Part shown: positions 2,796-13,681 of the stretch, piece after piece | Layout of the letters: each line of letters begins with the position of its first letter | How positions within the stretch are numbered: position 1 is the stretch's first letter | DNA from: a virus | Virus record (IMG/VR): IMGVR_UViG_3300042691_048644 | Location: 1 to 23,205 of that record | Length of the DNA stretch: 23,205 bases | Direction: 5' to 3' (one strand) | Program-made: the position numbers and the translations under genes | The notes under the pieces: model-generated | Databases searched by the model: none | Told to the model about the DNA's origin: nothing | Seen by the model: the letters and a program-made list of their open reading frames with translations, nothing else

Positions 2796-3146
2796 ATGTC
2801 GAATTTTTTAGGTAAAGACGGATTAATTTGGTGGGTTGGAACTGTAGAGAATAGAATGGATCCTCTTGGTTTGGGTCGTTGCCAAGTTCGAATTTTTGGT
2901 TGGCACACCGATGGTAGTAAAGAATCACAACAGAAGATACCGGTGGTCGATTTACCTTGGGCTATGCCGATATTACCATGTAATAACACCAAATCTTTTT
3001 CTTCTCCGGAACTAAAAGATTGGGTGGTTGGATTTTTCTTTGATGGGCTATCTGGCCAATTTCCTGTAATGTTTGGTGTTATTCCTGGTTTCATACCTAC
3101 AGCAGAAGATAAGAAAGTTGATGGAAATGATTTTATTTACATCTGA
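2796..3146 (+). CDS. gp5: gp5 N-terminal OB-fold domain as a separate protein
   Basis: This 116-aa protein matches only the first domain of T4 gp5, the OB fold that sits on the gp27 ring. The diagnostic stretch is WWVGTVENRMDPLGLGRCQVRIFG (residues 12-35), parallel to WFVGVVEDRMDPLKLGRVRVRVVG in T4 gp5. It is followed by LPWAMPI and a GSS-like loop, then VVGFFFDGLSGQFPVMFGVIPG, parallel to the T4 strand ending in a G-x-L-G turn. The protein then stops with a proper TGA (3144-3146). There is no lysozyme domain and no beta-helix attached; a beta-helix of the gp5 type appears 0.9 kb downstream as its own gene. A TGGAG at 2781-2785 is the likely ribosome-binding site. The hub spike is therefore probably assembled from separate chains. 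Confidence 0.85.
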   Translation: MSNFLGKDGLIWWVGTVENRMDPLGLGRCQVRIFGWHTDGSKESQQKIPVVDLPWAMPILPCNNTKSFSSPELKDWVVGFFFDGLSGQFPVMFGVIPGFIPTAEDKKVDGNDFIYI

Positions 3147-3153
3147 GGTATAA

Positions 3154-4050
3154 ATGGCAGAAACAACAGTCAATCTTGGCGGCTTCGATTTTATAAACTT
3201 CAAAATCACCGAAAGTTTTCCACCAAATTCACCGTTTTCTGGTGTGTTTGCGAAGCCTGGTGTGCAAACCACACCAGCTTTGTCTAGGGGTTATGTTCAG
3301 GGATCAGCAATTGATCTTATGAATAATAATTTAACACACGTATGTGATTTCAGATTTATTTTTAACATTGATATTTTTGCATCTTTAGGTTTGGTAAATC
3401 CTATTGCTGCGATACAACGAGCAATTCGTAATGCAAAGTTGAAAGCTGCAACACGAATGAGAGATTTGTTGCAGAAAGCTATTGAAGTTGTTAAAAAAAT
3501 AATGGCAGCAATAAGTGCAGCATTAAATTTTGATCCCACAGGACAAATCTCTTTGATAGTTGATTTATCTAAAGATACGATTAGAAGAGTAAATCAAGCT
3601 ATTGAAGATGTGGCTGATGCAATTGAGAGCGTTTTGGAGTGGGTATTCTTTGCACAAGAAATTATCGATTTAATAAACTGGATTAAAAGTTTACCGGAAA
3701 AAATTAAAAATCTATTGTTAGCTTGTATTGCAAAATTTGTAGGTTCACTAAAACAAGCAGTTAACAGCATATTATCAATTCCAGATCAAATTATTAATGC
3801 AACTGTGGGCCAAGCAAGATTAATTGCTGATCAATTTGTTGGTGCAGTCAAAGAAGTAGAAGAAGCTGCAAAAATACAATTTGATAGTGATTCAAAAGAT
3901 TTTTCTCCAGAATTATTGGACCTTATAATGAACCCTACAGAAGACGGTGCTAATAATATCATAACATATATAAATGTAAACACAGCAAATGCAAATGCGG
4001 TTTTCGCGAACTCGACAGGAACATTAATGGAAAATTCTTCTTCACCCTAA
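3154..4050 (+). CDS. Unrecognised helical protein between the two gp5 parts
   Basis: I do not recognise a family. The first ~75 residues contain Pro/Gly and beta-like sequence (FDFINFKITESFPPN near the start). Residues ~75-250 look almost wholly alpha-helical, with amphipathic heptad-like stretches and a markedly hydrophobic part around 160-200 (containing WVFFAQEIIDLINWIKSL and NLLLACIAKFVGSL). The C-terminal ~50 residues are Asn/Ala/Ser-rich. No signal peptide, no clean 20-residue membrane span and no lysozyme or peptidase motif is visible. It starts 7 bases after the OB-domain gene with GAGG at 3143-3146 overlapping that gene's stop, and ends 6 bases before the beta-helix gene. Position therefore argues for a hub component. 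Possible roles by inference are a helical linker replacing the gp5 linker/lysozyme region, a tape-measure-like or gp29-like hub plug, or a membrane-active protein released on injection. Confidence 0.7.
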   Translation: MAETTVNLGGFDFINFKITESFPPNSPFSGVFAKPGVQTTPALSRGYVQGSAIDLMNNNLTHVCDFRFIFNIDIFASLGLVNPIAAIQRAIRNAKLKAATRMRDLLQKAIEVVKKIMAAISAALNFDPTGQISLIVDLSKDTIRRVNQAIEDVADAIESVLEWVFFAQEIIDLINWIKSLPEKIKNLLLACIAKFVGSLKQAVNSILSIPDQIINATVGQARLIADQFVGAVKEVEEAAKIQFDSDSKDFSPELLDLIMNPTEDGANNIITYINVNTANANAVFANSTGTLMENSSSP

Positions 4051-4056
4051 TAAATT

Positions 4057-5046
4057 ATGGCAACATCAACAACACAAACATTAGAAGATGGTACAAGCAT
4101 ACAATTTTTTGATGACGGTTCAACATTGGTAACCGACAATGAAGGAAATATAAGTTCTTCACCGGCACCTGATGGACCCGTAAACAAACCAAAAAATGTT
4201 CTTGCATGGACAGAACCAGAATCTGCCGCTAACAGCACACATCAACCTGTATATCCTTACAACAATGTAACACAGACAAAGGGTGGGCATTCATTCGAAA
4301 TGGATGACACTCCAACAAGAGAACGAATTCGTCTGCAACACAAATCTGGAACATTTACAGAGATACATCCAAACGGAAATGAAGTACACAAGATAATTGG
4401 AGATGGATATCATATCGTATTAGGTGATCACAACATATCCATCGGAGTTGATGATGGACAATTAGCTAAAAAATTAAATATCACAGTTAATGGTGATGCA
4501 TATTTTTATGTAAAAGGTAATAAAGTTGAACAGATTGACGGTAGTGTTGAACAGTTTGTTAAAGGCGATTTTACACAAACAGTACAAGGAACGCACACCA
4601 CAACATCTTTTGGAAATATGAAAATTAATGCTGGTTCTAGTGTAAGTCTTGTTCCTGGTTTAGAAAGCAAACTTACAATTAAAACAAATTTAGTTAAGAT
4701 AAATGCAGATGTTGATATCGACACAGGTCTTGTAGCAAATAAGATAACCTCAAGAGGAAGAATAGATTCTGGTCCACTTTCTGGAATTAGTGCTGGTTTA
4801 ATGGGTTTCAATTCTCCTCTTGGTGGTATTTCTATTGGTTTAATAAATCCTGCTATTCCAGGAACAATCATGTCGAGTGGTCCAATAACCTCTTTTTCAA
4901 GTATGTCCGCACCACTTGGAAATTATGGAATATCTGCATCACTACTGGGATTTGATGTTATTAATACTTTATTGAGAAAAGTTCACAAACACGCTGCAAA
5001 AGGTGGTCTAACTTCACCACCATTAACTCAAGAAGTCAAGAAGTGA
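4057..5046 (+). CDS. gp5: gp5 C-terminal beta-helix spike as a separate protein
   Basis: This 329-aa protein corresponds to the C-terminal piercing needle of T4 gp5. Residues 66-107 read YPYNNVTQTKGGHSFEMDDT...RERIRLQHKSGTFTEIHPNG, the strongly conserved entry to the triple-stranded beta-helix (T4 has a GHIFEIDDTP...LLQFHKSG counterpart). From about 110 to 200 there are short alternating strands with regularly spaced V/I, G and N/D (for example YFYVKGNKVEQIDGSVEQFV), as in spike helices. A Gly/Ser/Ile-rich region follows. The extreme C-terminus has H310-x-H312 followed by G, T and PP, resembling the iron-binding tip of phage spikes. There is no lysozyme domain. No clear Shine-Dalgarno precedes the ATG (ACCCTAATAAATT), so expression may depend on coupling to the gene 6 bases upstream. 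Confidence 0.85.
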   Translation: MATSTTQTLEDGTSIQFFDDGSTLVTDNEGNISSSPAPDGPVNKPKNVLAWTEPESAANSTHQPVYPYNNVTQTKGGHSFEMDDTPTRERIRLQHKSGTFTEIHPNGNEVHKIIGDGYHIVLGDHNISIGVDDGQLAKKLNITVNGDAYFYVKGNKVEQIDGSVEQFVKGDFTQTVQGTHTTTSFGNMKINAGSSVSLVPGLESKLTIKTNLVKINADVDIDTGLVANKITSRGRIDSGPLSGISAGLMGFNSPLGGISIGLINPAIPGTIMSSGPITSFSSMSAPLGNYGISASLLGFDVINTLLRKVHKHAAKGGLTSPPLTQEVKK

Positions 5047-5066: not shown

Positions 5067-5912
5067 ATGGCTGGAGTATACGCTTTACTAGGATTCGACA
5101 CAACAGATCCAATAGCTAATGGTGCTGTTGAACAATTGAGTTCAACAGTTCAGACACAAATGAAAATGATGCCGAAGTTACTGCAACCATGGCAAGAAGC
5201 CGATTTAATATCAGATGAAGTCGAACAATATTTTGTGAATCCTGTATCAAACACGATCAATGTCATCTGGTCAACATCAAACACAATTTCGAATCTATCA
5301 TTTTCAAATGTTATCACAGGTACAATAAATGTAACATTCAATAATCCTGGTGTATCCAATATTATGAATCCTGCACTGATGGTCGTGAGAGATGTGACGC
5401 AAAACATTGCAAATAGTTTTATGATACACACAGACAGAATATCGAATGTGATGCCACTTGATTTCGATGTTGATTTACCACATTATGAAACCGCAATTGG
5501 TTTTGGTAAAATTATCATGTATATTGTCAACCAAACCGATAATATACAGAACAACTCACCCTTGATTGGTAGTTTTTCCAGTCTTTTTGTTGCAAATACA
5601 CTGTCGGATTACTCAAATACCTTTGTTTCGATATCAAATGTTTACTTGGGTTCAATCGTTAATGGCAATTCTTCACTAAGTTTAACAGATGCGAATGAAT
5701 TTTCAAATGCTGCAAATCAAGTTTCAAATACAATGACGACATATCGACAAAAAGACTTTGATTTTTTCACAAATTCACAAATGATCGTAGATAGGTATAA
5801 TAAAGCTAGTGAATTCAATAGGATTGGCCAGACAGAACTATTTCTAATCAATAATTACATCGGAACAACAAACTTAAAGAACAATTTGGCAAATACCGGT
5901 AATACATCCTAA
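5067..5912 (+). CDS. Unrecognised 281-aa structural-type protein
   Basis: No family recognised. It begins MAGVYALLGFDTTDPIANGA and has a Met/Pro-containing helix (MKMMPKLLQPWQEADLI, about residues 33-49). The middle is dominated by Asn, Ser, Thr and Val with repeated S-N pairs (STSNTISNLSFSNVI), typical of beta-rich virion proteins. The end is a more charged, probably helical C-terminus (TYRQKDFDFFTNSQMIVDRYNKASEF). No signal peptide or membrane span is convincing. AAAGGAA at 5053-5059 is a good ribosome-binding site eight bases before the ATG. It is the last gene of the hub block, ahead of the gap before gp25, so a tail or baseplate role is likely but unproven. Confidence 0.75.
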   Translation: MAGVYALLGFDTTDPIANGAVEQLSSTVQTQMKMMPKLLQPWQEADLISDEVEQYFVNPVSNTINVIWSTSNTISNLSFSNVITGTINVTFNNPGVSNIMNPALMVVRDVTQNIANSFMIHTDRISNVMPLDFDVDLPHYETAIGFGKIIMYIVNQTDNIQNNSPLIGSFSSLFVANTLSDYSNTFVSISNVYLGSIVNGNSSLSLTDANEFSNAANQVSNTMTTYRQKDFDFFTNSQMIVDRYNKASEFNRIGQTELFLINNYIGTTNLKNNLANTGNTS

Positions 5913-12526: not shown

Positions 12527-13681
12527 ATGCCATTATTTTCATCATTTTCCGGTAGTTTGTCTATACTTGCGGGCCCGGTACCTTTAATTATTACACCAAG
12601 CACAACAAGCATGACTGAGGGTGAAGAGGTGGTTTTCACAATTACTGGCCCCAGTAATACATATTTTCTAACTCCTCAAAATTTACGACCTCATTCATTA
12701 AACGCCGCATTTAAAACTGTAACTGTGTCTGGAGGAGAAGCCACAGTTTCTTATTTTGTTGGAATAAACTCCAATAATACTGAATCAGATAATGTATGGA
12801 GAATGAATGTTCGTACCGGAAGTACAACAGGACCAATTGTTGCTACTAGCGCAGACATTACAGTTTCTACCGTAATTGCGGGAACCTTTATTGATGAGGT
12901 GGCTGGATCAAGAAGTTGGACTGTTCCCGATGGAGTTACTAGTATTTCTTTCATAATCGTTGGTGGTGGCGGCGGCGGCGGCGGTTATCAATCCGGCACT
13001 GGCCGAGGCGGGGGAGGAGGAGGTGCTGTTGCAGCTCGAAATAATGTAGCTGTAACGCCTGGCGGCACAGTAAGTTACACTATCGGTGCGGGTGGAACTG
13101 GTGGAGCAAATACTACCAATGGTGGAAATGGTGGAGCTTCGTCGTGCCGATCAGCAATCGCTGGTGGAGGTCAAGCAGCAACTGGTGCCACCGGCGGCGC
13201 CGGCGGCGTTCGAAGCGGCACGACCGATCTTGGCGGCAATGGCGGCGCCGGTGGACAAGGCAACAGTACTAACGCCGGCGGCGGTGGTGGTGCCGGCGGA
13301 CTAGCAGGTAATGGCGGCCAAGGTGGCAGCACCGCCGCTGGCTTCGCCGCTCAAGCAGGCAGCGGCGGCGGTGGCGGCGGAGGTGCCAGCAGCGGGGGCA
13401 TCGGCGGCGCCGGTGGGGGTTGTGATCTTACCCATGGATTAGGAACTTTAGTAAATGGCTCGGTCGGCGCCACGGGGGCTTCAGGTTTTGCAGGTTTAAC
13501 TAATTCCGGGTCCGGAGGTAACTTCCCTGGTTCCGGCGGCGGATCCAGTAAAAGCCCCGTATCGCCCACCGGCCTGGGCGGCAAGGCCGGCGGAATACTT
13601 ATAGTATGGCCAGGAAACTTAAGACAAGCACAAATGACTCCAGGAAATCCTCCACAAAACACTGGAACTTTACCTTCTTAA
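12527..13681 (+). CDS. Glycine-rich adhesin-like protein
   Basis: Probable receptor-binding protein. Residues 1-~115 form a beta-rich domain like Ig/Calx-beta modules (PLIITPSTTSMTEGEEVVFTI). At about 130 a linker RSWTVPDGVTSISFIIVGGGG opens a glycine-rich domain of ~230 residues with long Gly runs and GG-x-GG repeats, closing with GGKAGGILIVWPG. This layout is a known glycine-rich domain type in phage and bacterial surface proteins. In phage S16 gp38, Gly-rich motifs pack as polyglycine II helices with host-specific loops; by inference the N/S/T/A/R loops here could play that role. The DNA of the Gly-rich part is far more GC-rich than its neighbours. The gene starts nine bases after the fibre gene with no clear Shine-Dalgarno (GTACTAATC). 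A smaller chance is a fibre-tip chaperone/adhesin for the gene upstream. Confidence 0.8.
   Translation: MPLFSSFSGSLSILAGPVPLIITPSTTSMTEGEEVVFTITGPSNTYFLTPQNLRPHSLNAAFKTVTVSGGEATVSYFVGINSNNTESDNVWRMNVRTGSTTGPIVATSADITVSTVIAGTFIDEVAGSRSWTVPDGVTSISFIIVGGGGGGGGYQSGTGRGGGGGGAVAARNNVAVTPGGTVSYTIGAGGTGGANTTNGGNGGASSCRSAIAGGGQAATGATGGAGGVRSGTTDLGGNGGAGGQGNSTNAGGGGGAGGLAGNGGQGGSTAAGFAAQAGSGGGGGGGASSGGIGGAGGGCDLTHGLGTLVNGSVGATGASGFAGLTNSGSGGNFPGSGGGSSKSPVSPTGLGGKAGGILIVWPGNLRQAQMTPGNPPQNTGTLPS
12960..13610 (+). other. GC-rich island within the adhesin gene
   Basis: Hand counts for the 60-base lines at 13201 and 13321 give 43 and 47 G+C (about 72 and 78 percent); the line at 14041 in gp8 has about 25 percent. 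Glycine codons force some of this, but the third position also shifts to GGC and GCC across about 13190-13420, whereas glycine elsewhere in the window is mostly GGT or GGA. The change is sharp on both sides and inside one reading frame. Confidence 0.85.

Follow-up and report, generated by a model that had tools for sequence, protein, structure and literature searches.

Gp5 of phage T4 is the textbook cell-puncturing needle. It is made as a single precursor chain that is cut in two after assembly, and in the mature spike (gp5* and gp5C) the needle chain is separate from the OB chain. In phages P2, Mu, phi92, and Milano, one spike chain carries both the OB domain and the needle. These spikes also share an HxH motif near the needle C-terminus. 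Iron is bound at HxH in P2, phi92, and R2 pyocin, and Mu is reported to bind it as well; Milano has the motif (PMC10811340, PMC6116203). T4 gp5 is cut at Ser351/Ala352, within the linker that joins the lysozyme to the needle (PMC3004832, PMC7650644).

In marine cyanophages and Stenotrophomonas phage Moby, the OB domain of gp5 is followed in the same chain by a helical-looking middle without Pfam lysozyme; the needle is Pfam-matched in Moby and assumed in the cyanophages. The gp5 proteins of Pelagibacter phages HTVC008M and Mosig have no Pfam lysozyme either; they consist of OB and needle in one short chain (350 and 361 aa), and a PAAR gene lies beside gp25. The cultured Methylophilales phage Melnitz (MZ577097) has the OB domain (346-aa gene) and the beta-helix (667-aa gene) in adjacent genes. 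Its OB gene gives a sub-threshold VanY match, the C-terminus of its beta-helix gene looks M15-like by eye, and passages of the paper describing it (PMC9004378) make no mention of a divided gp5.

The stretch of DNA analysed here (the window) is an IMG/VR virus record of 23,205 bases with a T4-type baseplate operon, in the order tube cap, gp53, a gp27-like gene, OB, MID, BH, a 281-aa orphan ORF, gp25, and gp6 (Table 1). The cultured phages with the best gp6 matches are HTVC008M and Mosig. The reading that best explains the evidence as a whole, and one that we consider probable, is that gp5, the central spike of this T4-like baseplate, is divided among three genes.

Table 1. Features of the spike locus; positions are those of the window.
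Feature	Position	Strand	Evidence or remark
gp27-like hub protein, 444 aa	1446..2780	+	phrog_350 'tail protein' E 3e-76; directly upstream of OB
OB, stand-alone gp5 N-terminal OB domain, 116 aa	2796..3146	+	phrog_694 E 5e-30, phrog_430 E 8e-25
MID, helical protein, 298 aa	3154..4050	+	lies between OB and the needle; forms one chain with OB in a single sub-clade of relatives
H62-x-C64-D65 signature of MID	3337..3348	+	H and C each in 75/79 distinct MIDs
C191 of MID	3724..3726	+	75/79; retained or lost jointly with H62 and C64
BH, stand-alone gp5C-type triple-stranded beta-helix needle, 329 aa	4057..5046	+	phrog_430 E 1e-44
H310-x-H312, candidate iron-binding apex	4984..4992	+	near needle C-terminus

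The preliminary description of this locus had taken the OB domain and the beta-helix to be separate genes with proper starts and stops, and all three ORFs are indeed complete, with ATG starts. The OB matches are confined to the first ~115 positions of the gp5 models phrog_694 and phrog_430 (Pfam Gp5_OB reaches E 0.089, under cut-off); BH aligns with positions 314-483 of the phrog_430 gp5 model, and a 12-row BH profile finds T4 gp5 (1K28) in the PDB at E 2e-31. At the level of sequence, these alignments show OB and BH to be homologues of the two ends of gp5, encoded apart. The locus thus has in common with T4 gp5 the OB domain, a sequence-homologous triple-stranded beta-helix, and a gp27-like neighbour, and, as in the mature T4 spike, needle and OB are separate chains. 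However, the single precursor chain cut after assembly is replaced by three ORFs whose relative frames vary among relatives: the division is genetic rather than proteolytic, and OB and the middle are separate as well. Unlike T4, the locus has a candidate HxH apex; no lysozyme domain was found in it, and no PAAR gene in the MID-phage records searched. Melnitz differs in that no MID match was found.

We take chain D of structure 1WTH to be gp27. The gp27-like protein of the window is homologous to a gene of Ochrobactrum phage OC (E 2e-14), for which the depositors' annotation records a match to 1WTH_D; the spike should be seated on this hub protein. At the window edge, the tube-cap ORF (66-845) has a TTG start, and its counterpart in a relative (L019:3010-4050, 346 aa) has an ATG further upstream, which indicates that the start of the window truncates the tube-cap gene. 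Farther downstream, positions 12527-13681 encode a glycine-rich protein (Pfam Gly_rich_2, E 1e-7).

Five scans of IMG/VR yielded 193 loci, some of them sharing contigs, in which ORFs were classified by profile and those running off the stretch were kept as incomplete classes. OB, MID, and BH were three separate genes in 135 loci, with BH broken in two in 3 more; a fused OB-MID was followed by BH in 22 and stood without BH in 1. The rest comprised 12 loci with separate OB and MID, 6 with MID and BH, 8 with a single-chain OB-BH, 2 with OB and BH as separate genes, and 4 with OB alone. When loci were grouped at 95% OB identity, the three-gene form accounted for 67 of 84 groups, followed by OB-MID plus BH (5), single-chain OB-BH (5), and separate OB and BH (2); the remaining 5 were incomplete (3 with OB and MID, 2 with OB alone). 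These shares are biased, as the queries of four of the five scans contained MID. With OB alone as the query, 339 relatives were obtained and the 80 best kept; among these, OB and MID were separate in 61 cases and fused in 16, and 3 ended before MID. Far from being an oddity of a single phage, the three-gene order is what most members of a large group of relatives have.

The preliminary description had raised the possibility of a sequencing or assembly error. Such an error, or a programmed frameshift or readthrough joining the frames, would fit the arrangement in the window, where MID and BH share a frame and the TAA stop of MID stands directly before a second TAA. However, the three-gene form recurs in the 67 groups with every relative frame represented (28/27/12 groups for OB to MID, 39/20/8 for MID to BH), and the OB and MID of the window were found 100% identical in two other contigs (L001, L002/L019). 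Since all three relative frames occur, neither assembly error nor conserved recoding explains the split; recoding was rejected on this ground, and we regard the chance of either as practically negligible. The gaps between the genes are small, with medians of 2 and 6 bases over 138 loci.

The same description had called for a survey of related genomes and allowed that the order might prove a well-described standard. The order is widespread, but we found no literature description of it: among the open-licence papers listed by the searches, none had a title or abstract opening that described a three-gene gp5, and passages of PMC3037559 and PMC3322345 have no bearing on it. A paper on pelagimyophages describes gp5 as strongly divergent (PMC7029224). 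No cultured phage with MID was found by tblastn of the window MID and two divergent relatives against 50,697 phage records.

A quick maximum-likelihood tree of the gp27-like protein, without bootstrap, was built from 88 rows, after three incomplete ones had been removed from the 91 selected. The OB-MID fusion forms one clade in it (SH-aLRT 97) inside the three-gene form, and four single-chain OB-BH rows fall outside a 73-row clade (SH-aLRT 98), with a fifth, L132, inside. Read most simply, the tree points to an early division that came with MID and to one later fusion of OB and MID, under a rooting that depends on long branches, on which the cultured rows sit.

The preliminary description had compared the division of the genes to the cleavage of T4 gp5, and the start of BH supports the comparison. 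In the alignment of BH with T4 gp5, the WTEP motif stands at T4 residues 376-379 (Phe376 aligned), which leaves 24 gp5C residues between Ala352 and Phe376 in T4; the window BH has 50 residues ahead of WTEP. A loose form of the motif, which missed 13 of 97 needles, gave a median of 8 preceding residues in the 84 matched, and 39-52 in six needles of the window's kind. The BH gene boundary accordingly lies in the same linker as the T4 cut; we do not claim exact coincidence.

The protein between OB and needle had been described as an unrelated-looking 298-aa gene. Its position holds, and nothing credible was matched in PHROG or Pfam; it is, however, no stranger to the spike. MID is fused to OB in 23 loci (5 of 84 groups), for instance in L077 and L073, where it follows OB in one chain with its signature kept. 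These fusions, all in one sub-clade, tie MID to the spike. Among 79 distinct MIDs (similarity-reduced from 163 complete sequences, ORFs running off the stretch excluded), the same four lack all of H62, C64, and C191; in the L054 group, where MID is fused to OB, the histidine and both cysteines were lost together and the genes retained. We take MID for a helical family without earlier description, marked by an H-x-C...C signature and with a putative fold and role. In L049 (6345-7568), L047, L048, and L050, MID carries a Thr/Ser-rich N-terminal extension of ~100 residues. We considered whether the N-terminus of MID (TTPxLARG) is what is left of the linker in single-chain gp5, and set this aside: the match lies in the expected position at E 0.3, which is not significant.

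AlphaFold gave a poor model of the window MID from 27 sequences (mean pLDDT 45.9) and a weak one of the L085 core from 77 (mean pLDDT 61.5, pTM 0.41), with long helices at 62-85, 96-142, 146-173, and 179-205. For the alignment used in this fold prediction and in a Pfam scan, the four MIDs without H-x-C...C were omitted and L085 and L216 added. A Foldseek search with the weak model against viral models and the PDB returned nothing at E 0.001 or better; the best match was an uncharacterised 292-aa phage protein (E 0.04). In the Pfam scan, two MIDs matched a TetR family (up to E 1.5e-6), over cut-off in L235; we take these matches to reflect helix composition.

Could MID be a cryptic peptidoglycan hydrolase that replaces the lysozyme through its conserved His, Cys, and Asp? 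The conservation of H, C, D, and the second C in 75 of 79 sequences would suit such a role, and L235 (from genome G006) is matched weakly by Phage_lysozyme over model positions 37-91 (12.2 bits against a cut-off of 22.3; E 0.0025 in one genome, E 0.095 in a Pfam scan). Yet the same stretch of L235 fits the TetR repressor family better (E 2e-6, over cut-off), which implies that helical composition drives such matches. The catalytic Glu of Phage_lysozyme lies outside the matched part of the model, and no Glu column of MID reaches 80%. No hydrolase appears among the 25 families shown of 40 Pfam families listed for 77 MIDs, the fold search with the weak model had no significant match, and one sub-clade has lost the H-x-C...C site. 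The preliminary description had named a lysozyme fold in the 298-aa protein as something that would refute it; none was found in these searches, and profile comparison with lysozymes gave 0.03%. We consider a hydrolase role of MID very improbable.

Cyanophage gp5 has a helical-looking middle, and MID might instead be that segment set free when gp5 broke into three domains. MID occupies the same position between OB and needle, cyanophage gp5 has no Pfam lysozyme, MID profiles match weakly inside gp5 of S-WAM1 (E 0.007), Syn30 (E 0.004), and S-CREM1 (E 0.05), and profile comparison gives up to 52%. This homology looked promising at first and then failed reversed-alignment controls: the central part scored 33.8 forward against 36.6 reversed and the full length 42.2 against 45.4, while heptad-block shuffles reached up to 25, and stand-alone MIDs by themselves brought the probability to 22%. 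The likeness may reflect helix composition alone, and we rate common descent as unlikely. The cyanophage and Moby proteins also differ from the locus in being one chain, the cyanophage middle is not shown to be homologous to MID, and Moby has a PAAR gene.

As a third possibility, MID could act in assembly, as a chaperone or morphogenetic factor that helps to fold or dock the spike and stays out of the virion. MID is known here from sequence, its gene lies between those of the components it would assemble, and its helices resemble solely unrelated, mostly helical families. However, in the 23 loci with fusion to OB, a structural domain, a chaperone would enter the baseplate, and we think this quite unlikely.

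The orphan ORF downstream of BH (5067-5912) has no family match and occupies the interval between BH and gp25 in most relatives tested. It is present in 101 of 105 three-gene loci with HxC, in all four fused loci with HxC, in none of 16 fused loci without HxC, and in 6 of 8 single-chain loci. It was considered as a missing tip protein or a partner of MID and rejected, since its presence in single-chain loci and its absence from four HxC-keeping three-gene loci leave no strict link.

An HxH tip together with an apparently missing PAAR gene is a feature of this spike that went unnoticed in the preliminary description. Of 97 separate needles that are not identical to one another (complete ORFs of 180 aa or more, those running off the stretch left out), 95 have HxH among their final 40 residues, against a mean of 3 and a maximum of 8 in 200 whole-protein shuffles; five single-chain proteins have it nowhere. 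The two separate needles without it are L048 and L206, the latter of which ends early. In an alignment of 54 of 60 listed HxH needles plus the window, the histidines are invariant by construction; a profile of the needle C-terminus found no apex among solved structures. The needle thus resembles the P2- and Mu-type spikes in having HxH close to the C-terminus. Unlike those of P2, Mu, phi92, and Milano, it is T4-type by sequence and lacks an apex-family match: GpV Apex was not among the matches of the window BH at E up to 1, and in five further needles it appeared in L130 only, at 17.4 bits against a cut-off of 20.8.

A PAAR search of 11 records gave matches over cut-off in T4, Moby, Mosig, HTVC008M, and G005 (a record with single-chain OB-BH) and under cut-off in Melnitz and S-CREM1; there was none in Syn19 and three MID-phage records. 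Syn19, which has no MID, is likewise without a PAAR match. A wider search turned up PAAR in none of 14 MID-phage records, which are mostly fragments, include some near-copies, and do not include the window's own; the one OB-BH record searched with them, G005, had it. The needle may carry its own apex in place of the PAAR protein.

No match to a lysozyme domain was found in OB, MID, or BH with PHROG and Pfam, in agreement with the earlier claim that the lysozyme is missing from OB and BH. BH has a weak match (E 7e-5) to phrog_181, an 'endolysin' PHROG, in the segment shared with gp5. Among cultured phages, gp5 carries Phage_lysozyme in T4, M15 and Phage_lysozyme2 in OC, and CHAP in RHph_N34, and has no Pfam lysozyme in S-B64, Syn19, S-CREM1, HTVC008M, Moby, and Mosig; a gp5 without a lysozyme match is common among the phages tested. 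In L134, L136, and L168, single-chain gp5 has the order OB, needle, M15-like domain, with Pfam M15_3 under cut-off (E 0.03, 0.035, and 0.0006, respectively) and a PHROG endolysin match in L136 (E 8e-10).

What degrades peptidoglycan had been left as a question and is partly answered outside the window. Phage_lysozyme is over cut-off in 2 of 15 MID-phage records, G004 (531 aa) and G011 (440 aa), in both cases in the gene directly after a gp26-like hub gene; the neighbour in G011 shares 52% identity with the gp26-like protein encoded in G001. Anabaena phage A-1(L), with hydrolase domains in the hub and not the spike (PMC10966104), is a precedent for an enzyme off the spike. L019, which has the OB and MID of the window, also carries the beginning of a gene of this kind, which continues past the end of the stretch analysed (62% identical over 154 residues). 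In G001 the gene in that place encodes an 802-aa protein in which no recognised domain or hydrolase was found; its assignment as a lytic transglycosylase, from a motif seen by eye with no database support, was rejected. Elsewhere in the tail region of G001 (L113:5225-14237, ~65-74 kb), Radical_SAM is matched four times, once over cut-off (E 2e-10), once narrowly short of it (29.4 of 29.5 bits), and twice more weakly, close to three 2OG-Fe(II) oxygenase matches over cut-off, an unusual enzyme cluster amid structural genes.

In the three-gene spike, an OB trimer would cap the gp27-like hub, and a BH trimer would form a needle that is never covalently joined to it and docks via its conserved N-terminal segment (WTEP...YPYN...SGHxxExDDTP). 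MID could sit at the junction as a helical clamp or collar, with its H-x-C...C site lending stability through a disulfide or a bound metal. On contraction, the needle would pierce with a metal-loaded apex and could detach without a maturation protease; peptidoglycan would be cut, in at least some relatives, by the hub-region enzyme encoded after the gp26-like gene. We put forward only tentatively the full combination, in which three separately translated proteins form the spike, MID clamps the free needle to the OB/hub ring through H-x-C...C, release needs no proteolysis, the built-in metal apex made PAAR dispensable, and hydrolysis moved to another hub protein.

For annotation, several marine phage gp5 proteins are labelled 'tail lysozyme', and the Pfam domain is absent in those tested here. 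Beside the textbook needle of T4, the split-gene group is in effect a natural experiment: it bears on what holds the needle, on the need for cutting before release, and on whether the peptidoglycan enzyme must be located on the spike. The series from single-chain OB-BH through OB-MID plus BH to three separate genes, set beside the HxH tip versus the PAAR gene, leads to testable predictions.
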